Shown here: in pieces, positions 8,126-32,504 of the stretch | Numbering within the stretch: the stretch's first letter is position 1 | How the letters are laid out: each line of letters opens with the position of its first letter | Origin: a virus | IMG/VR virus record: IMGVR_UViG_3300025778_000010 | Coordinates: 44,357 to 108,356 of that record | Direction: 5' to 3' (one strand) | Length of the DNA: 64,000 nt | The notes under the pieces: model-generated | Database searches by the model: none | What the model was told of the DNA's origin: nothing | What the model saw: only the letters and a program-made list of their open reading frames with translations | Made by a program: the position numbers and the translations under genes

Positions 8126-8809
8126 ATGAACAATGAGAACAAAACAAGGATAAGAACAGCATGGGTAATGATTGGTGTGAGTATTATCACAATGATTTTT
8201 GGCATCAATCCCGCACATGCAGCACAAATGCAAGAAGCAATAGTGTATAATAAAAATATATTATATATTAATAAATATACTAATTTAGTTAATATTAAAA
8301 ATATTATTAATATAGATATATTAAATAATAATAAAGAAAAAAACAGTAACACAGATTATTTAATTAATGATCTGTCTTCTGGAAAAACTTTTTTAATGCC
8401 CGCTTATAGCATCAAGCTAAATTTAAATCAAAGAGTAGATCAGCGAGTAATAATTTCAAGACTAGCAAATGCAATCAAGTCAGTGGAAACTGGCGGGGTT
8501 AACGCATATTATCGCAAGTCTTATTCCAGTAGTGCATGTGGTGCCTATCAGTACATGCAAGATACGTGGAACAACTTTATGGGATATAAGAGTGCATGCG
8601 ATGCACCAGAATGGGTACAGGATCAACGTATGATTGCCGAACTAAAATCGTCATATAAAACTTACGGTTCTTGGCCCGCTGCCGTCGCAGCCCATCTTTG
8701 CCCATCAAGGGCGGGCAATGTAAAGACTTGGTTCAAACCAGTACCAGGCAATCCTACTGTCTTCCAATACGTCTCAAGTATTTTTCAACAGGCAAATATC
8801 GCATTCTGA
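8126..8809 (+). CDS. secreted lysozyme-like (transglycosylase) protein
   Basis: 227 residues starting at the ATG 8 nt after AAGGAGG. An N-terminal signal peptide is clear: basic start, hydrophobic VMIGVSIITMIFGI at 14-27, and cleavage after PAHA near residue 32. Residues 40-75 are Asn/Ile/Lys-rich, encoded by extremely AT-rich DNA, and look like a disordered linker. The C-terminal domain begins with AIKSVETGG (candidate catalytic Glu121) and continues ACGAYQYMQDTWNNF, the SLT/resuscitation-factor-like fold that cuts peptidoglycan glycan strands. As a secreted muralytic enzyme it could serve host lysis or virion entry. Cleavage specificity is unknown. Confidence 0.85.
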   Translation: MNNENKTRIRTAWVMIGVSIITMIFGINPAHAAQMQEAIVYNKNILYINKYTNLVNIKNIINIDILNNNKEKNSNTDYLINDLSSGKTFLMPAYSIKLNLNQRVDQRVIISRLANAIKSVETGGVNAYYRKSYSSSACGAYQYMQDTWNNFMGYKSACDAPEWVQDQRMIAELKSSYKTYGSWPAAVAAHLCPSRAGNVKTWFKPVPGNPTVFQYVSSIFQQANIAF

Positions 8810-9045
8810 TGAAGATACAAGTCTTTTCTCAGTATTACAATTTGGCTAGGGCAGGCAAAGTTAAACCTTTGTACTGCCCTAATCATCAAAGTGAGTATGC
8901 TCACAACGATGGGTACCTTTATTGGCTAGTTCACAAAATGGTAAGTGAAGATATCGTGTTATACTGTACAGCATGTGGGTATGAACAAAAAGCAGGCCTA
9001 CAACTTTACGAAAACATTTTAAAGGAGATAGTCAATGTCACATGA
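8809..9045 (+). CDS. small zinc-ribbon-like protein
   Basis: 78 residues. The ATG at 8809 shares its A with the stop of the lysis gene (TGATG), so translation is coupled. Two cysteine sites are visible: CPNH near residue 21 and CTAC near residue 51. They may bind zinc; no family is recognised. The end overlaps the next gene by 11 nt. Confidence 0.7.
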   Translation: MKIQVFSQYYNLARAGKVKPLYCPNHQSEYAHNDGYLYWLVHKMVSEDIVLYCTACGYEQKAGLQLYENILKEIVNVT

Positions 9046-10641: not shown

Positions 10642-11310
10642 TTATTTGTTTCTTGAGATAAAGTCATTTAAGATAGCCTCCGTTGCTGTTAATCCAAATC
10701 TTGTAGCTCCTGCATCATATAATTCTAGTAAATAATCTAAACTTCTGATCTTCCCCGCAGCTTTTACCTCTACTTTTTCAGATACCGACTCTTTCATGAG
10801 CTTAATATGCTCAACTTTAGCACCTTCAGGAGCATATCCTGTTGAAGTTTTCACAAAATTAGCTCCAGCTTGCTCAGATAACCAGCATCCTTGCTCAATT
10901 TCTTCATCTGTAAGGTATGCAGTCTCTAAAATTACCTTTAAAGGTCTCATTTCTACTGCTTGCTTTACAGTTTCAATGTCTTTTACCACCACATCATACT
11001 GTTTTGACTTCAATGCAGCGATATTTAAGACCATATCAAACTCATCTGCTCCATGCATTACCGCAATTTTAGCTTCTAACATCTTTACTTCATGAGTATT
11101 ATAGCCAAAAGGAAATCCAATGACTGTTCCAATTTGTAAACTACTCGATTGACTGAGATTTTTTGCAAATTGTACATGTGTTGGTCTTACCATTGCTAAT
11201 TTTACACCATATCTTAAGGCCAAATTAATGCCTTCTGCAATTTCATACTCAGTTAAAGTAGGTTGTAGCAATGAATGGTCAATCATATTTGCTAATTGTG
11301 TGTAATTCAA
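10642..11310 (-). CDS. deoC: deoxyribose-phosphate aldolase
   Basis: 222 residues, full length for the family. It converts 2-deoxyribose-5-phosphate to glyceraldehyde-3-phosphate and acetaldehyde. Class I aldolase residues are visible: Asp92 (DEFDMVLN), Lys154 in FVKTSTGY (Schiff base) and Lys183 in EVKAAGKIR. In a phage it probably recycles sugar from degraded host deoxynucleosides for energy. It starts directly after the stop of the cupin-like gene, with no spacer, so the two form an operon. Confidence 0.93.
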   Translation of the reverse strand: MNYTQLANMIDHSLLQPTLTEYEIAEGINLALRYGVKLAMVRPTHVQFAKNLSQSSSLQIGTVIGFPFGYNTHEVKMLEAKIAVMHGADEFDMVLNIAALKSKQYDVVVKDIETVKQAVEMRPLKVILETAYLTDEEIEQGCWLSEQAGANFVKTSTGYAPEGAKVEHIKLMKESVSEKVEVKAAGKIRSLDYLLELYDAGATRFGLTATEAILNDFISRNK

Positions 11311-11884: not shown

Positions 11885-12098
11885 CACCAATTTTTTACAA
11901 TGTAACGTGTATCACACTAAATTAGATTTGATCAAAATGTTAATGGATTTTTAAAATGCATGATTCACTTTTAAAAACAAAAAATCAAATTTGAATAGTG
12001 CGCCCGAAATGTCCAAATTGCCCTGGTATGTACCCTAAAGATGTGGTCTATCTCACAAAGTTTTTTTAAAAGATGTCCGATTTGTACGCATTTTGGAG
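11885..12098. other. divergent regulatory region without a gene
   Basis: Part of a 320-nt gap between the cupin gene (minus) and the first early gene (plus). It holds two CRP/GlxR-like sites: TGTAACGTGTATCACA at 11901-11916, and TGTGG-N6-TCACA at 12042-12057, one mismatch from TGTGA-N6-TCACA. It also has two ATGTCC words near 12008 and 12073. No open frame with a ribosome binding site was found. Confidence 0.6.
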
Positions 12099-12127
12099 TT
12101 GAAAATGTCAGTGGTGTGTGTTATAGT
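12099..12127 (+). promoter_or_regulatory. early promoter with ATGTCAG spacer element
   Basis: TTGAAA at 12099-12104, 17-nt spacer beginning ATGTCAGTGG, then TATAGT at 12122-12127 preceded by TGT. First of a series of similar promoters on this strand. Confidence 0.65.
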
Positions 12128-12183: not shown

Positions 12184-12408
12184 ATGACTTCACTAAATAA
12201 CTACTATAATGAAATCCGTATGGATATTGCTAAAGATTTTGGTCTAGAGGCAGGTGGCTATGCTCCCCGCCCTAAGTTAATGCCTATCACTATCGCTCAG
12301 CGTATTAACGCTAAGTATCCTAGTGTAGATAATGGCTCTCGTTGGGGTCAGCCTAATCCAAAGGCTATCCTAATCGCTAAGCGTTATCACGCTCTGTTTG
12401 TGGCGTAA
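12184..12408 (+). CDS. small early protein, unknown
   Basis: 74 residues behind AAAGAAAGGAAG. Begins MTSLNNYYNEIRMDIAKDFG; the centre (PRPKLMPITIAQRINAKYP) is basic and could bind nucleic acid. First gene of the early plus-strand region. Not recognised. Confidence 0.75.
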   Translation: MTSLNNYYNEIRMDIAKDFGLEAGGYAPRPKLMPITIAQRINAKYPSVDNGSRWGQPNPKAILIAKRYHALFVA

Positions 12409-12423
12409 GTCACAATCACGGCA

Positions 12424-12464
12424 CGGCGTGTCGAGTTGATTTTGTCAGCCCTATCTGATAGACT
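12424..12464 (+). promoter_or_regulatory. cassette repeat copy with promoter
   Basis: CGGCGTGTCGAGTTGAT (12424-12440) is a copy of the dispersed repeat and supplies the -35 TTGATT (12436-12441). A 17-nt spacer containing TTGTCAGCCCTATCTGA leads to TAGACT at 12459-12464. Confidence 0.65.
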
Positions 12465-13816: not shown

Positions 13817-13851
13817 TTAGGCGTAGCAAAATTGCTACGCCTAATTTTATT
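13817..13851 (+). terminator. strong rho-independent terminator
   Basis: 13-bp perfect stem TTAGGCGTAGCAA/TTGCTACGCCTAA followed by TTTTATT. Ends the first early unit and isolates the region with the DnaA boxes. Confidence 0.9.
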
Positions 13852-13869: not shown

Positions 13870-13910
13870 ACGGCGTGTCGGCTTGACAAAGCCGAGCCGA
13901 GGGGCTGGCC
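13870..13910 (+). repeat. cassette repeat copy
   Basis: CGGCGTGTCGGCTTGACA (13870-13887) followed by GGGCTGGCCC (13901-13910). Member of the dispersed repeat family of the 12-20 kb region. Confidence 0.75.
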
Positions 13911-13958
13911 CAAAAAATCGGACATTTACGGCATTTAAGACATTCGATATACACAGAT

Positions 13959-13979
13959 TTATCCACAAGCTGTGGATTA
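13959..13979. other. inverted DnaA boxes, candidate origin element
   Basis: TTATCCACA at 13959-13967 is an exact bacterial DnaA box. After 3 nt comes TGTGGATTA (13971-13979), the inverse of a one-mismatch box. Flanked by AT-rich DNA. Confidence 0.6.
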
Positions 13980-14008
13980 TTGTTCATCTTAAATTAACCT
14001 AAAACTTA

Positions 14009-14048
14009 CGGCGTGTCGCTTGATTTTTTCGATTTTATCTGATAAACT
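14009..14048 (+). promoter_or_regulatory. cassette repeat with promoter
   Basis: CGGCGTGTCGCTTGATT carries the -35 TTGATT (14020-14025); a 17-nt spacer ending TTTTATCTGA leads to TAAACT at 14043-14048. Confidence 0.6.
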
Positions 14049-14081: not shown

Positions 14082-14097
14082 TGTGATGTACTTCACA
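14082..14097. promoter_or_regulatory. CRP/GlxR-type operator
   Basis: TGTGATGTACTTCACA is a perfect match to TGTGA-N6-TCACA (GlxR form TGTGANNTANNTCACA). It lies about 34 nt downstream of the 14043 -10 element and upstream of the 14207 gene. Confidence 0.65.
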
Positions 14098-14206: not shown

Positions 14207-14506
14207 ATGGCTACACTAGAAGTAAAAGTAAATGATAGTTTTGTTCCGCTTGAGTATGCTCCAAGCGATGTAAAGATTTCTCTTGAGTGGGCGTTAATGA
14301 ATAATGCTCCAATGGTAGTAAAATCCACTACCCCCGCCGTTGTTCGTGTTTGCAAAGTTTGCGAATATGCACACGAAGGTTTGTATTGCACAAATTGTTT
14401 CACGGGTGAGCGTGTAAATTGCTCCCCTGCTGGCAAGTTTAATAAATGGTCAAAAGTGATGCGAATCACACCAACTACTTGCAACAAATCTCGGCGTGTC
14501 GCCTAG
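14207..14506 (+). CDS. zinc-binding early protein
   Basis: 99 residues. C-terminal half has CKVCEYAHEGLYCTNC and another Cys (VNCSP), a probable zinc knuckle. The last codons (KSRRVA) are formed by a copy of the dispersed GGCGTGTCG repeat, so the repeat has been absorbed into coding sequence. Strong site AAAGAAAGGTGG. Unknown function. Confidence 0.75.
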   Translation: MATLEVKVNDSFVPLEYAPSDVKISLEWALMNNAPMVVKSTTPAVVRVCKVCEYAHEGLYCTNCFTGERVNCSPAGKFNKWSKVMRITPTTCNKSRRVA

Positions 14507-14532
14507 ATAATGTCAGTATAATCTGATATAAT
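14492..14532 (+). promoter_or_regulatory. cassette repeat with promoter
   Basis: CGGCGTGTCG directly followed by TAGATA (-35, 14504-14509), ATGTCAG spacer of 17 nt, TATAAT at 14527-14532 preceded by TGA. Overlaps the end of the 14207 gene. Confidence 0.7.
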
Positions 14533-14994: not shown

Positions 14995-15103
14995 TAAAAT
15001 TTTCATATGTGATGAATGTGATACCCTTGCCACAATGTCAGTGCAAGGTGATACAATAACTATAAATAAATGTAAGTGCTTAACTTTAGAATGGAGCAAC
15101 TAA
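14987..15103 (+). CDS. mini zinc-ribbon with embedded promoter
   Basis: 38 residues: CDEC near residue 8 and CKC near residue 29. The ATGTCAGTG promoter element at 15035 lies inside the frame. Starts 8 nt before the end of the previous gene and ends TAATG into the next. Confidence 0.55.
   Translation: MSDKIFICDECDTLATMSVQGDTITINKCKCLTLEWSN
15029..15057 (+). promoter_or_regulatory. embedded early promoter
   Basis: ATGTCAGTGCAAGGTGA then TACAAT (15052-15057), same spacing as sister promoters. It would transcribe the 15103 gene from inside the mini zinc-ribbon gene. Confidence 0.5.
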
Positions 15104-15492: not shown

Positions 15493-15516
15493 ATATTTAT
15501 AACATTGCATAGCTAT

Positions 15517-15561
15517 GCGACACGCCCGAGTGCGGCTGGCCCCTGTCAACTCGACACGCCG
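15517..15561. repeat. cassette repeat, inverted arrangement
   Basis: GCGACACGCC (15517), CGGCTGGCCCC (15533-15543), then TGTCAACTCGACACGCCG (15544-15561), the reverse complement of the usual GGCGTGTCGAGTTGACA unit. Followed by ATTACGGGG and a TGTGATTTTAATC half-operator (15571). Confidence 0.75.
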
Positions 15562-15606
15562 ATTACGGGGTGTGATTTTAATCTCCCAAATACTGGCGGG
15601 TACAAC

Positions 15607-15635
15607 TAGATAATGTCAGTGGGTTCTGCTATACT
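15607..15635 (+). promoter_or_regulatory. early promoter
   Basis: TAGATA (15607-15612), 17-nt spacer ATGTCAGTGGGTTCTGC, TATACT (15630-15635) with TGC extension. Confidence 0.7.
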
Positions 15636-16084: not shown

Positions 16085-16218
16085 TGTCTGACAAGTCTGC
16101 TCAAGATCTATTTAATGAAATGGATACCCTTTGGGATAATTTCAAGAAAGCCACATGGCAAATGTCAGTGGTGCCTGCTACAATAACATCCTTAACCCAA
16201 CCAAAGAATGGAAACTAA
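16084..16218 (+). CDS. small early peptide with embedded promoter
   Basis: 44 residues (MSDKSAQDLFNEMDTLWDNF at the start). The second half is read from the ATGTCAGTGG promoter element. Coupled to the upstream gene by TAATG. May be only a carrier of the promoter. Confidence 0.5.
   Translation: MSDKSAQDLFNEMDTLWDNFKKATWQMSVVPATITSLTQPKNGN
16156..16184 (+). promoter_or_regulatory. embedded early promoter
   Basis: TGGCAA (16156-16161), ATGTCAGTGGTGCCTGC spacer, TACAAT (16179-16184). Confidence 0.55.
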
Positions 16219-17181: not shown

Positions 17182-17240
17182 GCGGTGTGTCGAGTTGACA
17201 ACCGTTGATTTTTGGGCTGGCCCGTCAAGCCGACACGCCG
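17182..17240. repeat. cassette repeat, full palindromic copy
   Basis: GCGGTGTGTCGAGTTGACA on the left, GGGCTGGCCC in the middle, and GTCAAGCCGACACGCCG on the right form an imperfect palindrome with about 17-nt arms. The most complete copy of the family. Confidence 0.8.
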
Positions 17241-17249
17241 TTTACGGGG

Positions 17250-17265
17250 CGTGATTTTAATCACA
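17250..17265. promoter_or_regulatory. CRP/GlxR-type operator
   Basis: CGTGATTTTAATCACA, a near-perfect palindrome (GTGATT/AATCAC), next to TTTACGGGG and 64 nt upstream of the DUF932 gene's -35. Confidence 0.55.
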
Positions 17266-17328
17266 TGGAATGGGCGGGGACAAAACGGACATATCAGACA
17301 AATCATTATTTAACTTAGGCTTTACGGG

Positions 17329-17358
17329 TAGACAGATGTCAGCCTTATCTGCTAGAAT
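17329..17358 (+). promoter_or_regulatory. promoter of the DUF932 gene
   Basis: TAGACA (17329-17334), 18-nt spacer with ATGTCAGCCTTATCTGC, TAGAAT (17353-17358). Confidence 0.65.
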
Positions 17359-17389: not shown

Positions 17390-18430
17390 ATGACTAACCC
17401 AATGTCACAGGTTCATCGCTCAGAAGTTGAGGATGGTTCTGTATCTCTTGCTGTATCACTTCGCACAAATCCTGCATGGCACTCTTTTGCTAACAAGGTA
17501 TTTGCTAAGGATGAGCAAGTCACAACCGCACAAATGCTAGATGCTGCTAAACTCTCAAATTGGAATGTTTCTCTTGAGTCTGTTTCAGATTTATTGCCAG
17601 ACAACTATGATTCTGTTAGCGAGAATTTTTTGGTTGTTCGTGATAACCCTTACACAGCAGGACAAAAAGATGTTCTCTCAGTTGTAGGCTCACGCTATAA
17701 GGCTGTTCAGAATGAAGAACTCTTTTCTTTTGCAGATAACCTACATGATGGAAACCCTGATGTAAATTGGGAAAGTGCAGGTTCTCTAAAGAATGGTCGT
17801 GTTGTATTTGGCACAATGTCAATTCCCCGCACTATGGTTCTTGACCCTAATGGTGCTAATGACACTACCAATCTTTATCTCGTAGTTTACACTTCACACG
17901 ATGGTTCAGTTGCGGTTCAATCTGCAATTACCCCTGTTCGTGTTATGTGTCAAAACACTCTTAATTTCGCTATGCGTAAGGCTAAGCAATCTTTCAAGAT
18001 TCGCCACACTCAGACAGTAGATGGAAAAATTGCTGCTGCTCGTGAGACTCTAGGTCTAACTCTTGCGTACATGGATGAATTCGAAACACAAGCAAAAGAA
18101 CTTTTCTCTCGTGAAGTGACAAATGCTAAGTTTAGCGAAATCATTAACAAGATGTATCCTAAGCCAGAGGCAGATGTTAAGGGTTCAATCAAGAAGTGGG
18201 AAAACAAGGTTGTTCTGCTTGATGACCTTTACCATAACTCTCCTACTAATGCTAATATCAAGGGTACAGCATGGGGCGTTGTAAATGCTCTAACCGAACG
18301 CCTTGATTACTATCGCACAGCCCGCAAGGGAAACAGCGATTCGCTAATGGCAGGTGCAAGCGGATTTGACCCTGTTATCACAGCAGAAAAAAATAAAATT
18401 GTTAAGCAGGTTCTTGCACTTACCGCTTAA
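17390..18430 (+). CDS. DUF932 family phage/plasmid protein
   Basis: 346 residues, the largest early protein. Typical DUF932 features: PAWHSFANKVF (the conserved W-H region), ENFLVVRDNPYT, VVGSRYKAVQNEELFSFADNL, and TPVRVMCQNTLNFAM, followed by a helical C-terminal half. Members are abundant in phages and plasmids, sometimes near replication or recombination genes; the biochemical function is unknown. Single-gene unit with its own promoter, followed by a hairpin and tRNA-Asp. Probably highly expressed given its cassette. Confidence 0.9.
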   Translation: MTNPMSQVHRSEVEDGSVSLAVSLRTNPAWHSFANKVFAKDEQVTTAQMLDAAKLSNWNVSLESVSDLLPDNYDSVSENFLVVRDNPYTAGQKDVLSVVGSRYKAVQNEELFSFADNLHDGNPDVNWESAGSLKNGRVVFGTMSIPRTMVLDPNGANDTTNLYLVVYTSHDGSVAVQSAITPVRVMCQNTLNFAMRKAKQSFKIRHTQTVDGKIAAARETLGLTLAYMDEFETQAKELFSREVTNAKFSEIINKMYPKPEADVKGSIKKWENKVVLLDDLYHNSPTNANIKGTAWGVVNALTERLDYYRTARKGNSDSLMAGASGFDPVITAEKNKIVKQVLALTA

Positions 18431-18559: not shown

Positions 18560-18601
18560 CGGCGTGTCGAGTTGACAAAACAGCTGGGGCGGGCTGGCCC
18601 C
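18560..18601 (+). repeat. cassette repeat copy
   Basis: CGGCGTGTCGAGTTGACA (18560-18577) and GGGCTGGCCCC (18591-18601). Followed by TTTACGG and a TGTGATTATAAACACA operator-like site (18632-18647). Confidence 0.8.
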
Positions 18602-18631
18602 ATAAAATCCATAATGTCAAGTCTTTACGGA

Positions 18632-18647
18632 TGTGATTATAAACACA
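18632..18647. promoter_or_regulatory. CRP/GlxR-like site
   Basis: TGTGATTATAAACACA, one mismatch from TGTGA-N6-TCACA, flanked by TTTACGGA on both sides. Confidence 0.5.
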
Positions 18648-18689
18648 TTTACGGATGACCGATATGTCCGATTTGTCTGCGTGTCTAAA

Positions 18690-18718
18690 TTGATTACTCA
18701 TGGGTAACTTGCTATAAT
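18690..18718 (+). promoter_or_regulatory. promoter, probably leaderless
   Basis: TTGATT (18690-18695), 17-nt spacer, TGC-TATAAT (18713-18718), only 8 nt before the ATG at 18727; no ribosome binding site. Confidence 0.7.
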
Positions 18719-18726
18719 ACTCACCT

Positions 18727-19368
18727 ATGGAAAATGTAAAAGAAACTTGGTTCAAATGGGATTATGTATGCCCAAATTGCGATGCACATATTGAGATGAC
18801 TATTAAATCTAATGGTCATCCACATAGCGAGATTTGTTCTAAATGCTATGAGCGTCTAACTCTGATGTCAGTGGTAGATGCTACAATATACCCAACTCAA
18901 AAGAAAGAAGAACAAACTATGGAAACAACAATCGCTGAACTTTATAACCCAAATATGTTGGTTACATATAAGAAGATTACTGATGGTAATACTGAATATA
19001 TTACTGATAAGGTAACTGATATTGAGTGGGCTCTTGCTCAATCCCGCCGTAACTATGAGAGCCTTACAGAGCAACAAAATAATTGGTATCTCAAAGAGTC
19101 AAAACTACGCACTTTGCTAAATGATGTATTTCACGATTCAGAAGACCAAGACACACTTGAAAAAATTGCTGATATTTTTGATGTTCCACTAACTAAGGAA
19201 ATCGAAGTAACCGCTTGGGTCAATGTCAATATGACTATCGAAGTTGATATGCGTGAAGGCGAATATGATGTTGAAGACCTTGTTCGCAATAATCTCACAG
19301 TAGATGCCTATGGTGGAGAAATCACAGTTCACGACTTTGATGTAGACCGAGTAGAGGAGCAATACTAA
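18727..19368 (+). CDS. zinc-ribbon fused to acidic domain
   Basis: 213 residues. Residues 15-40 form a zinc ribbon (CPNC, CSKC). A promoter element (ATGTCAGTGG, 18865) sits inside the frame, and Met65 (18919) follows AAAGAAAGAAG, so two products are likely: full length and a 149-residue C-terminal form (METTIAELYNPNM). The latter ends in a beta domain with alternating acidic residues (ITVHDFDVDRVEEQY). In sister units the zinc-ribbon gene and the following gene are separate, so this may be an in-frame fusion. Confidence 0.7.
   Translation: MENVKETWFKWDYVCPNCDAHIEMTIKSNGHPHSEICSKCYERLTLMSVVDATIYPTQKKEEQTMETTIAELYNPNMLVTYKKITDGNTEYITDKVTDIEWALAQSRRNYESLTEQQNNWYLKESKLRTLLNDVFHDSEDQDTLEKIADIFDVPLTKEIEVTAWVNVNMTIEVDMREGEYDVEDLVRNNLTVDAYGGEITVHDFDVDRVEEQY
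18859..18887 (+). promoter_or_regulatory. promoter inside the fused gene
   Basis: ATGTCAGTGGTAGATGC spacer then TACAAT (18882-18887); drives translation from Met65 of the fusion. Confidence 0.55.
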
Positions 19369-32203: not shown

Positions 32204-32504
32204 GAATTTTCTTTAACTGACTCCATATTTCTGGGTCTTTGTGTGAGTTATTTTGTTTATCTATACGACCTAAGTCCATAAAAATACCGCCTCGTACACC
32301 AAACTCTTTATTTGCTACACCTTCTTTATGACATTGTTTAATTACTGGACAATGTAAACAAACTTGATCAATTTGTTTGGCAAGCTCTTTATCTGATTCA
32401 TAATCATCATAAAACCAATTAATTGACATATTTGTGCATGCTGCAAGGTGATACCATTTGATATCAACTTCATCAATTCCTAAATGACTAAATAAACCTG
32501 GCAT
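32178..32504 (-). CDS. WhiB-like Fe-S regulator
   Basis: 108 residues from ATG 32504 (GGTTAGCGATAAG upstream; a GTG at 32531 adds 9 residues). WhiB core: CTN, then CLHCPVIKQC, with CxxC-x5-C and the preceding Cys making four cysteines for a [4Fe-4S] cluster, and GVRGGIFM, the tryptophan/Gly turn equivalent. The family is restricted to Actinobacteria and their phages. Phage WhiB proteins can modulate host WhiB-dependent transcription or superinfection exclusion. Confidence 0.9.
   Translation of the reverse strand: MPGLFSHLGIDEVDIKWYHLAACTNMSINWFYDDYESDKELAKQIDQVCLHCPVIKQCHKEGVANKEFGVRGGIFMDLGRIDKQNNSHKDPEIWSQLKKIHGKNILHS

Follow-up and report, generated by a model that had tools for sequence, protein, structure and literature searches.

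The window analysed here, a stretch of 64,000 nucleotides, corresponds to positions 44357-108356 of an IMG/VR virus record of 108,356 bases (IMGVR_UViG_3300025778_000010). Its region from 12.1 to 20.9 kb contains small rightward genes, most of those individually scanned having no family match. The gene at 17390-18430 (forward strand), downstream of a cassette at 17182-17358, encodes a DUF932 protein (PF06067, E 5e-56). Neither a near match to the window in GenBank nor a close record in the phage collection was found. The DnaE-type polymerase shares 57% identity with that of Streptomyces phage BillNye, and the DUF932 protein 53% with those of Samistivirus phages, all of which belong to the Stanwilliamsviridae. 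Judging from these two identities, the record appears to represent a tailed phage related to this family. In Samisti12 the DUF932 gene (1210-2223 of its record) is located amid short genes with roomy gaps and, since the terminal repeats measure 10,666 bp (PMC5764925), inside these repeats. The region from 12.1 to 20.9 kb of the window is likely the counterpart of this DUF932 region. A gene at 10642-11310 encodes a protein taken for deoxyribose-phosphate aldolase (DeoC-like), and its nearest genome matches are distant and non-actinobacterial. In a search for known structured RNAs, tRNA alone was detected.

The gaps between the small genes carry recurring elements, designated here as the A box (GGCGTGTCG), the GC core (GGGCTGGCCC), the C palindrome (TGTGA-N6-TCACA) and the B promoter (AATGTCAG-N10-TAtAaT); strand-specific elements are on the forward strand unless stated otherwise. 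A C palindrome with one mismatch (TGTGGTCTATCTCACA, 12042-12057) is found 64 bp before the TGTCAG of a B promoter (TGTCAG...TGTTATAGT, 12106-12127) that precedes gene 12184. The end of this gene (12184-12408) is overlapped by a C-like palindrome (TGTGGCGTAAGTCACA, 12399-12414), 44 bp before the TGTCAG of the B promoter at 12443-12464, with an A box (12425-12433) 18 bp before the same TGTCAG. The cassette at 13870-14048 has a terminator-like hairpin just upstream (13817-13844, a consensus match only), and comprises an A box followed by GCTTGACA (13872-13880), a GC core GGGCTGGCCC (13902-13911), paired inverted DnaA-box-like sequences (TTATCCACA-AGC-TGTGGATTA, 13959-13978) and a second A box (14010-14018) ahead of a promoter without TGTCAG (TTGATT-17-TAAACT), after which comes a C palindrome (TGTGATGTACTTCACA, 14082-14097). 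Another C palindrome (AGTGATGCGAATCACA, 14455-14470) is followed by an A box and B promoter (14493-14532) before gene 14567, and further B promoters are located at 15036-15057 and, before gene 16220, at 16163-16184. In the cassette at 15517-15635, two inverted A boxes (reverse strand, 15518-15526 and 15552-15560) surround the core CGGCTGGCCC (15533-15542), and a degenerate C site (TGTGATTTTAATCTCC, 15571-15586) and a B promoter (15614-15635) lead to gene 15666. A GCATA-nn-TATGC palindrome adjoins this cassette (15507-15518), and similar, TGCATAAATATGC-like sequences occur upstream of cores in several relatives. The cassette at 17182-17358 contains an imperfect forward A box at 17184 (GGTGTGTCG), a core GGGCTGGCCC (17214-17223) and an inverted A box (17231-17239), followed by a C palindrome (CGTGATTTTAATCACA, 17250-17265) and a B promoter (17337-17358). 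Finally, the cassette at 18560-18718 has an A box followed by AGTTGACA (18561-18569), a core GGGCTGGCCC (18591-18600), a C palindrome (TGTGATTATAAACACA, 18632-18647) and a promoter without TGTCAG (TTGATT-17-TATAAT, 18690-18718).

For comparison, a scan with the DUF932 protein yielded 80 loci, of which 67 were kept once duplicates were removed; genes in these relatives were called with a simple script, and the boundaries of their intergenic regions are approximate. The repeated cassette described in the first-pass annotation is real, as GGCTGGCCC is present once in each of the four cassettes at 13870, 15517, 17182 and 18560 (4 exact copies versus 0.08 expected). Much as proposed there, the A box and GC core are followed by (A/T)TTACGG, a TGTGA-type site, a promoter and a gene at 15517-15635, 17182-17358 and 18560-18718, and this order is broadly conserved across the relatives; at 13870-14048 the elements are present, but the DnaA-box pair, the second A box and the promoter precede the TGTGA palindrome (14082). 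Within the window, the TTTACGG element shows no enrichment (7 copies versus 4.4 expected, a number reached in 12 of 100 shuffles), but its forward copies show moderate enrichment between the genes of relatives (57 versus 11.4). Likewise, a ribosome binding site AAAGAAAGG was found before genes 14207 and 15666 only, and not before genes 17390, which is preceded by AGAAAGAAGG instead, and 18727. The mRNA of the latter gene seems to be leaderless, since its ATG is located 8 nt past the TATAAT of the -10 element (18713-18729), and some relatives look similar. Within its reading frame (18727-19368) lies a strict TGTCAG promoter (18866-18887); a ribosome-binding-like site and, at 18919, an in-frame ATG come next (18866-18921), and a shorter second product may start there. 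As a terminator-like hairpin stands just upstream of the 13870 cassette, it is plausible that the cassettes are separately started early units.

The promoter that had been reported in each cassette could be confirmed, but its TGTCAG element between the -35 and -10 regions had been overlooked. With the strict definition TGTCAG, 7-8 bp, TGnTAnnnT, nine sites were identified in the record, all within the 7-kb early region. The pattern recurs in the 67 relatives, where 355 strict intergenic sites point forward and 1 points in reverse, and TGTCAG occupies positions -28 to -23 when the -10 hexamer is taken as -12 to -7. The A box occurs at 11 sites with at most one mismatch versus 1.6 expected. All eight exact copies lie at 12.4-18.6 kb and none elsewhere in the 108-kb record, and together with the nine strict promoters they occupy a single stretch of 7 kb whose early genes are mostly small. 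Reverse A boxes, at 15518, 15552 and 17231, are found in two of the four named cassettes. Between the genes of the 67 relatives, 228 forward and 82 reverse A boxes were counted (versus 0.2 in shuffled sequence), and another intergenic count gave 235 forward and 85 reverse; there are 4-9 per locus, in either orientation and in the early region only. In addition, at least 120 viral-contig stretches with CGGCGTGTCGNNTTGACA were found among the matches listed, often with 2-4 copies each. Of 43 near A boxes, 39 stand exactly 18 bp ahead of TGTCAG, at -46 to -38 on the same scale. In a tally of 623 B promoters, which precede 81 gene families, forward boxes at this place occur in 15 gene families and 36 genomes and reverse boxes in 12 families. 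The earlier observation that a module with its own promoter stands before different genes is thus well founded, as B promoters were found upstream of 81 gene families and A boxes upstream of 33 in the closer clade.

The C palindrome is present in 192 intergenic copies in the 67 relatives (versus 0.2 in shuffled sequence), albeit degenerate or missing at many B promoters. Its centres fall preferentially at -64.5, -74.5, -84.5 and -96.5, following a period of 10.5 bp (R=0.62, versus 0.10 for a period of 8 and 0.14 for a period of 13); each combination of gene family and distance was counted once, and the nominal p of 2e-19 ignores relatedness and is descriptive. A smaller group, at -69.5, does not fit this phase. 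Such phasing would be expected of an activator that works from one face of the helix, and the palindrome qualifies as CRP-type in standing at helically phased distances from the promoter. TGTGA-N6-TCACA is identical to the well-known CRP/GlxR consensus, and its centres stand about 3 bp away from the canonical class I positions of E. coli. Neither a Crp HTH domain nor a sigma-factor domain was detected in the 108-kb record, which is possibly incomplete, and the host probably supplies both; host factors are the simplest readers of the C and B elements. Two CRP-type palindromes were also observed within coding sequence just ahead of the early region (8176-8191 and 8890-8905). The phage itself encodes a WhiB-type regulator (32283-32456), possibly a partner of host factors and a candidate for changing promoter choice.

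The GC core behaves differently. GGGCTGGCCC was rejected as a family-wide motif, with 0 matches on the forward strand and 1 on the reverse strand between the genes of the 67 relatives; it is found solely in this record and two near-identical loci. At a similar place the relatives have a GC-rich core written in other letters (GGGTCGACCC, GGGCCGACCC, GGGCGCGCCC, CTGCGCCCCG and others). A conserved palindrome could not be recognized in the core either, as its stem length (3.1) is not above that in shuffles (2.9). Within a genome, the cores in cassettes of different genes share a mean identity of 0.774, versus 0.640 when genome labels are shuffled within gene slots, and none of the 2000 permutations reached the observed value, although p-values are descriptive for related sequences such as these. 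Flanks within a genome show no such excess likeness, their observed value being reached in 372 (upstream) and 176 (downstream) of the 2000 permutations, and a looser comparison of flank similarity, with clades pooled, gave no clear difference. In the close pair of loci L023 and L025, five cassettes were compared and the core is unlike in each, whereas two of them have upstream flanks with identities of 0.83 and 0.90; the cores of one genome hence tend to change together. This is a clear case of a set of regulatory sites altering sequence together between close relatives. The rate of core change is not uniform, since a more distant clade (L050 onward) retains one core type across many genomes.

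These comparisons do not support the duplication of a complete control module, as had been suggested initially, because the flanks are not shared. Cassettes within a genome have a core of about 20 nt and short motifs in common, with flanks at the permuted level, and in the half next to the promoter they are similar to what other phages have at the corresponding position. A better picture would be that the promoter halves are inherited in place and that the cores evolve in concert.

Recurrence, fixed spacing, helical phase and within-genome likeness of the cores are direct observations. Our preferred reading, to which we assign a probability of about 0.6, is that the cassettes are early-promoter regions served by the RNA polymerase of the host, by a CRP-type activator and by a phage-specific regulator at the A box and core. 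Host RNA polymerase would read each cassette, mostly at the phage-type promoter (AATGTCAG, about 10 bp, TAtAaT). TGTGA-N6-TCACA would probably be bound by a host CRP/GlxR-type dimer, on the same helical face as the polymerase, which it would recruit; early output would in this way depend on host state. The GGCGTGTCG(nnTTGACA) box, which stands immediately before the -35 region or beside the GC core further up, would with this core probably be the site of a phage-specific regulator with a drifting sequence preference, so that all cores of one genome would change together. Such drift of a cognate regulator would explain the concerted cores and has precedents in stoperators (PMC6550527) and in ESAS (PMC3203893). 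The binding proteins, their activating or repressing action and the separate transcription of each unit are what we infer from this arrangement.

A possible but rather unlikely alternative is that A box and core are sites for a phage repressor that blocks early transcription in the manner of stoperators, and not sites for an activator. The boxes are indeed repeated and dispersed between early genes, some overlap the -35 region, and the sequence is genome-specific, as in stoperators (PMC6550527). They occur, however, in both orientations and are confined to the early region, and no match to Phage_integrase or HTH_3 was found in the record, although it is possibly incomplete and cognate repressors need not match HTH_3.

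We consider it unlikely that the cores were merely copied among the cassettes of one genome by phage recombination, with no cognate protein involved and with the promoter and C elements still serving as ordinary promoters. Such neutral homogenization would be consistent with a core tract that is short, sharply bounded and free to differ in sequence between phages, and with the presence of a RecA/UvsX-type recombinase encoded by the phage. However, recombination would hardly be expected to homogenize tracts as short as about 20 nt that lack homologous flanks, and both the A box beside the core, family-wide, and the position of the core in the cassette are retained. For the C palindrome, it is equally doubtful that a phage-encoded regulator of another fold takes the place of host CRP: many small proteins of unknown function are encoded in the record, but the palindrome has the well-known CRP/GlxR consensus, and the record shows no Crp HTH. 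Finally, a primary role of the repeats in DNA replication (origin, DnaA loading), with their place before genes being secondary, is very improbable, since A, C and B keep a fixed spacing to the -10 element and to each other before many gene families and most window cassettes are without DnaA boxes, even though the pair at 13959-13978 is possibly an origin or a DnaA-controlled promoter and TTATCCACA is enriched between the genes of the 67 relatives (100 versus 1.8 expected).

Building on the preferred reading of early promoters under a host CRP-type activator and a phage-specific regulator, a speculative and on balance improbable extension is that the GC core would be a private regulatory address of each phage, read by its own factor, such that close relatives sharing a cell would not cross-regulate, with the host CRP-type activator setting overall early output.

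Class I CRP/GlxR-dependent promoters resemble the cassettes in that TGTGA-N6-TCACA precedes the -10 element at distances stepped by 10.5 bp, but here the arrangement is in a phage and includes TGTCAG between the -35 and -10 regions. In T4-type phages, mobile regulatory cassettes have reportedly been described (Arbiol, in 2010), with a module reused before different genes; in our case, the module does not bring its flanks along, and nothing resembling a mobile unit was observed. A similar layout is found in the early region of Samistivirus (cluster BE Streptomyces phages), which also has a DUF932 gene with many short genes, several of them preceded by a GC-rich palindrome and a promoter. This palindrome, which stands ahead of several early promoters, is of a different, TGTC-N7-GACA type, suggesting an old layout with a different sequence; TGTGAN6TCACA was not found in Samisti12.

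Regulatory repeats dispersed in front of many genes are known from mycobacteriophages of cluster A (PMC6550527) and cluster K (PMC3203893), so the principle, possibly undescribed in the first-pass view, is not a new one. In cluster K, SAS elements are located at start codons, where they are proposed to act in translation, and the associated ESAS is a 17-bp inverted repeat with a consensus that differs between genomes (PMC3203893). As in our phages, the repeats are found upstream of many different gene families, but the elements described here are tied to promoters 50-300 bp upstream, and no word such as the SAS sequence GGGATAGGAGCCC was among the most enriched intergenic words of the relatives. 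Inverted A arms with a genome-specific core are found at 17184-17239, and many cassettes have a single A box. The stoperators of cluster A phages such as L5 and Bxb1 have a motif that differs between genomes and matches the cognate protein there (PMC6550527). They resemble the A boxes as short asymmetric motifs repeated between genes, with some copies at promoters. Stoperators have one predominant orientation, whereas A boxes point both ways, with inverted copies in two of the four window cassettes. A boxes are also limited to the early region, where they are combined at fixed distances with a promoter and a CRP-type palindrome. This analysis offers a sequence-level account of how early genes may be controlled in a phage family that is widespread but largely uncultured. 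It predicts that early transcription of the phage is governed by a CRP-type regulator of the host, which could feasibly be tested in cultured Samistivirus phages with a similar layout.
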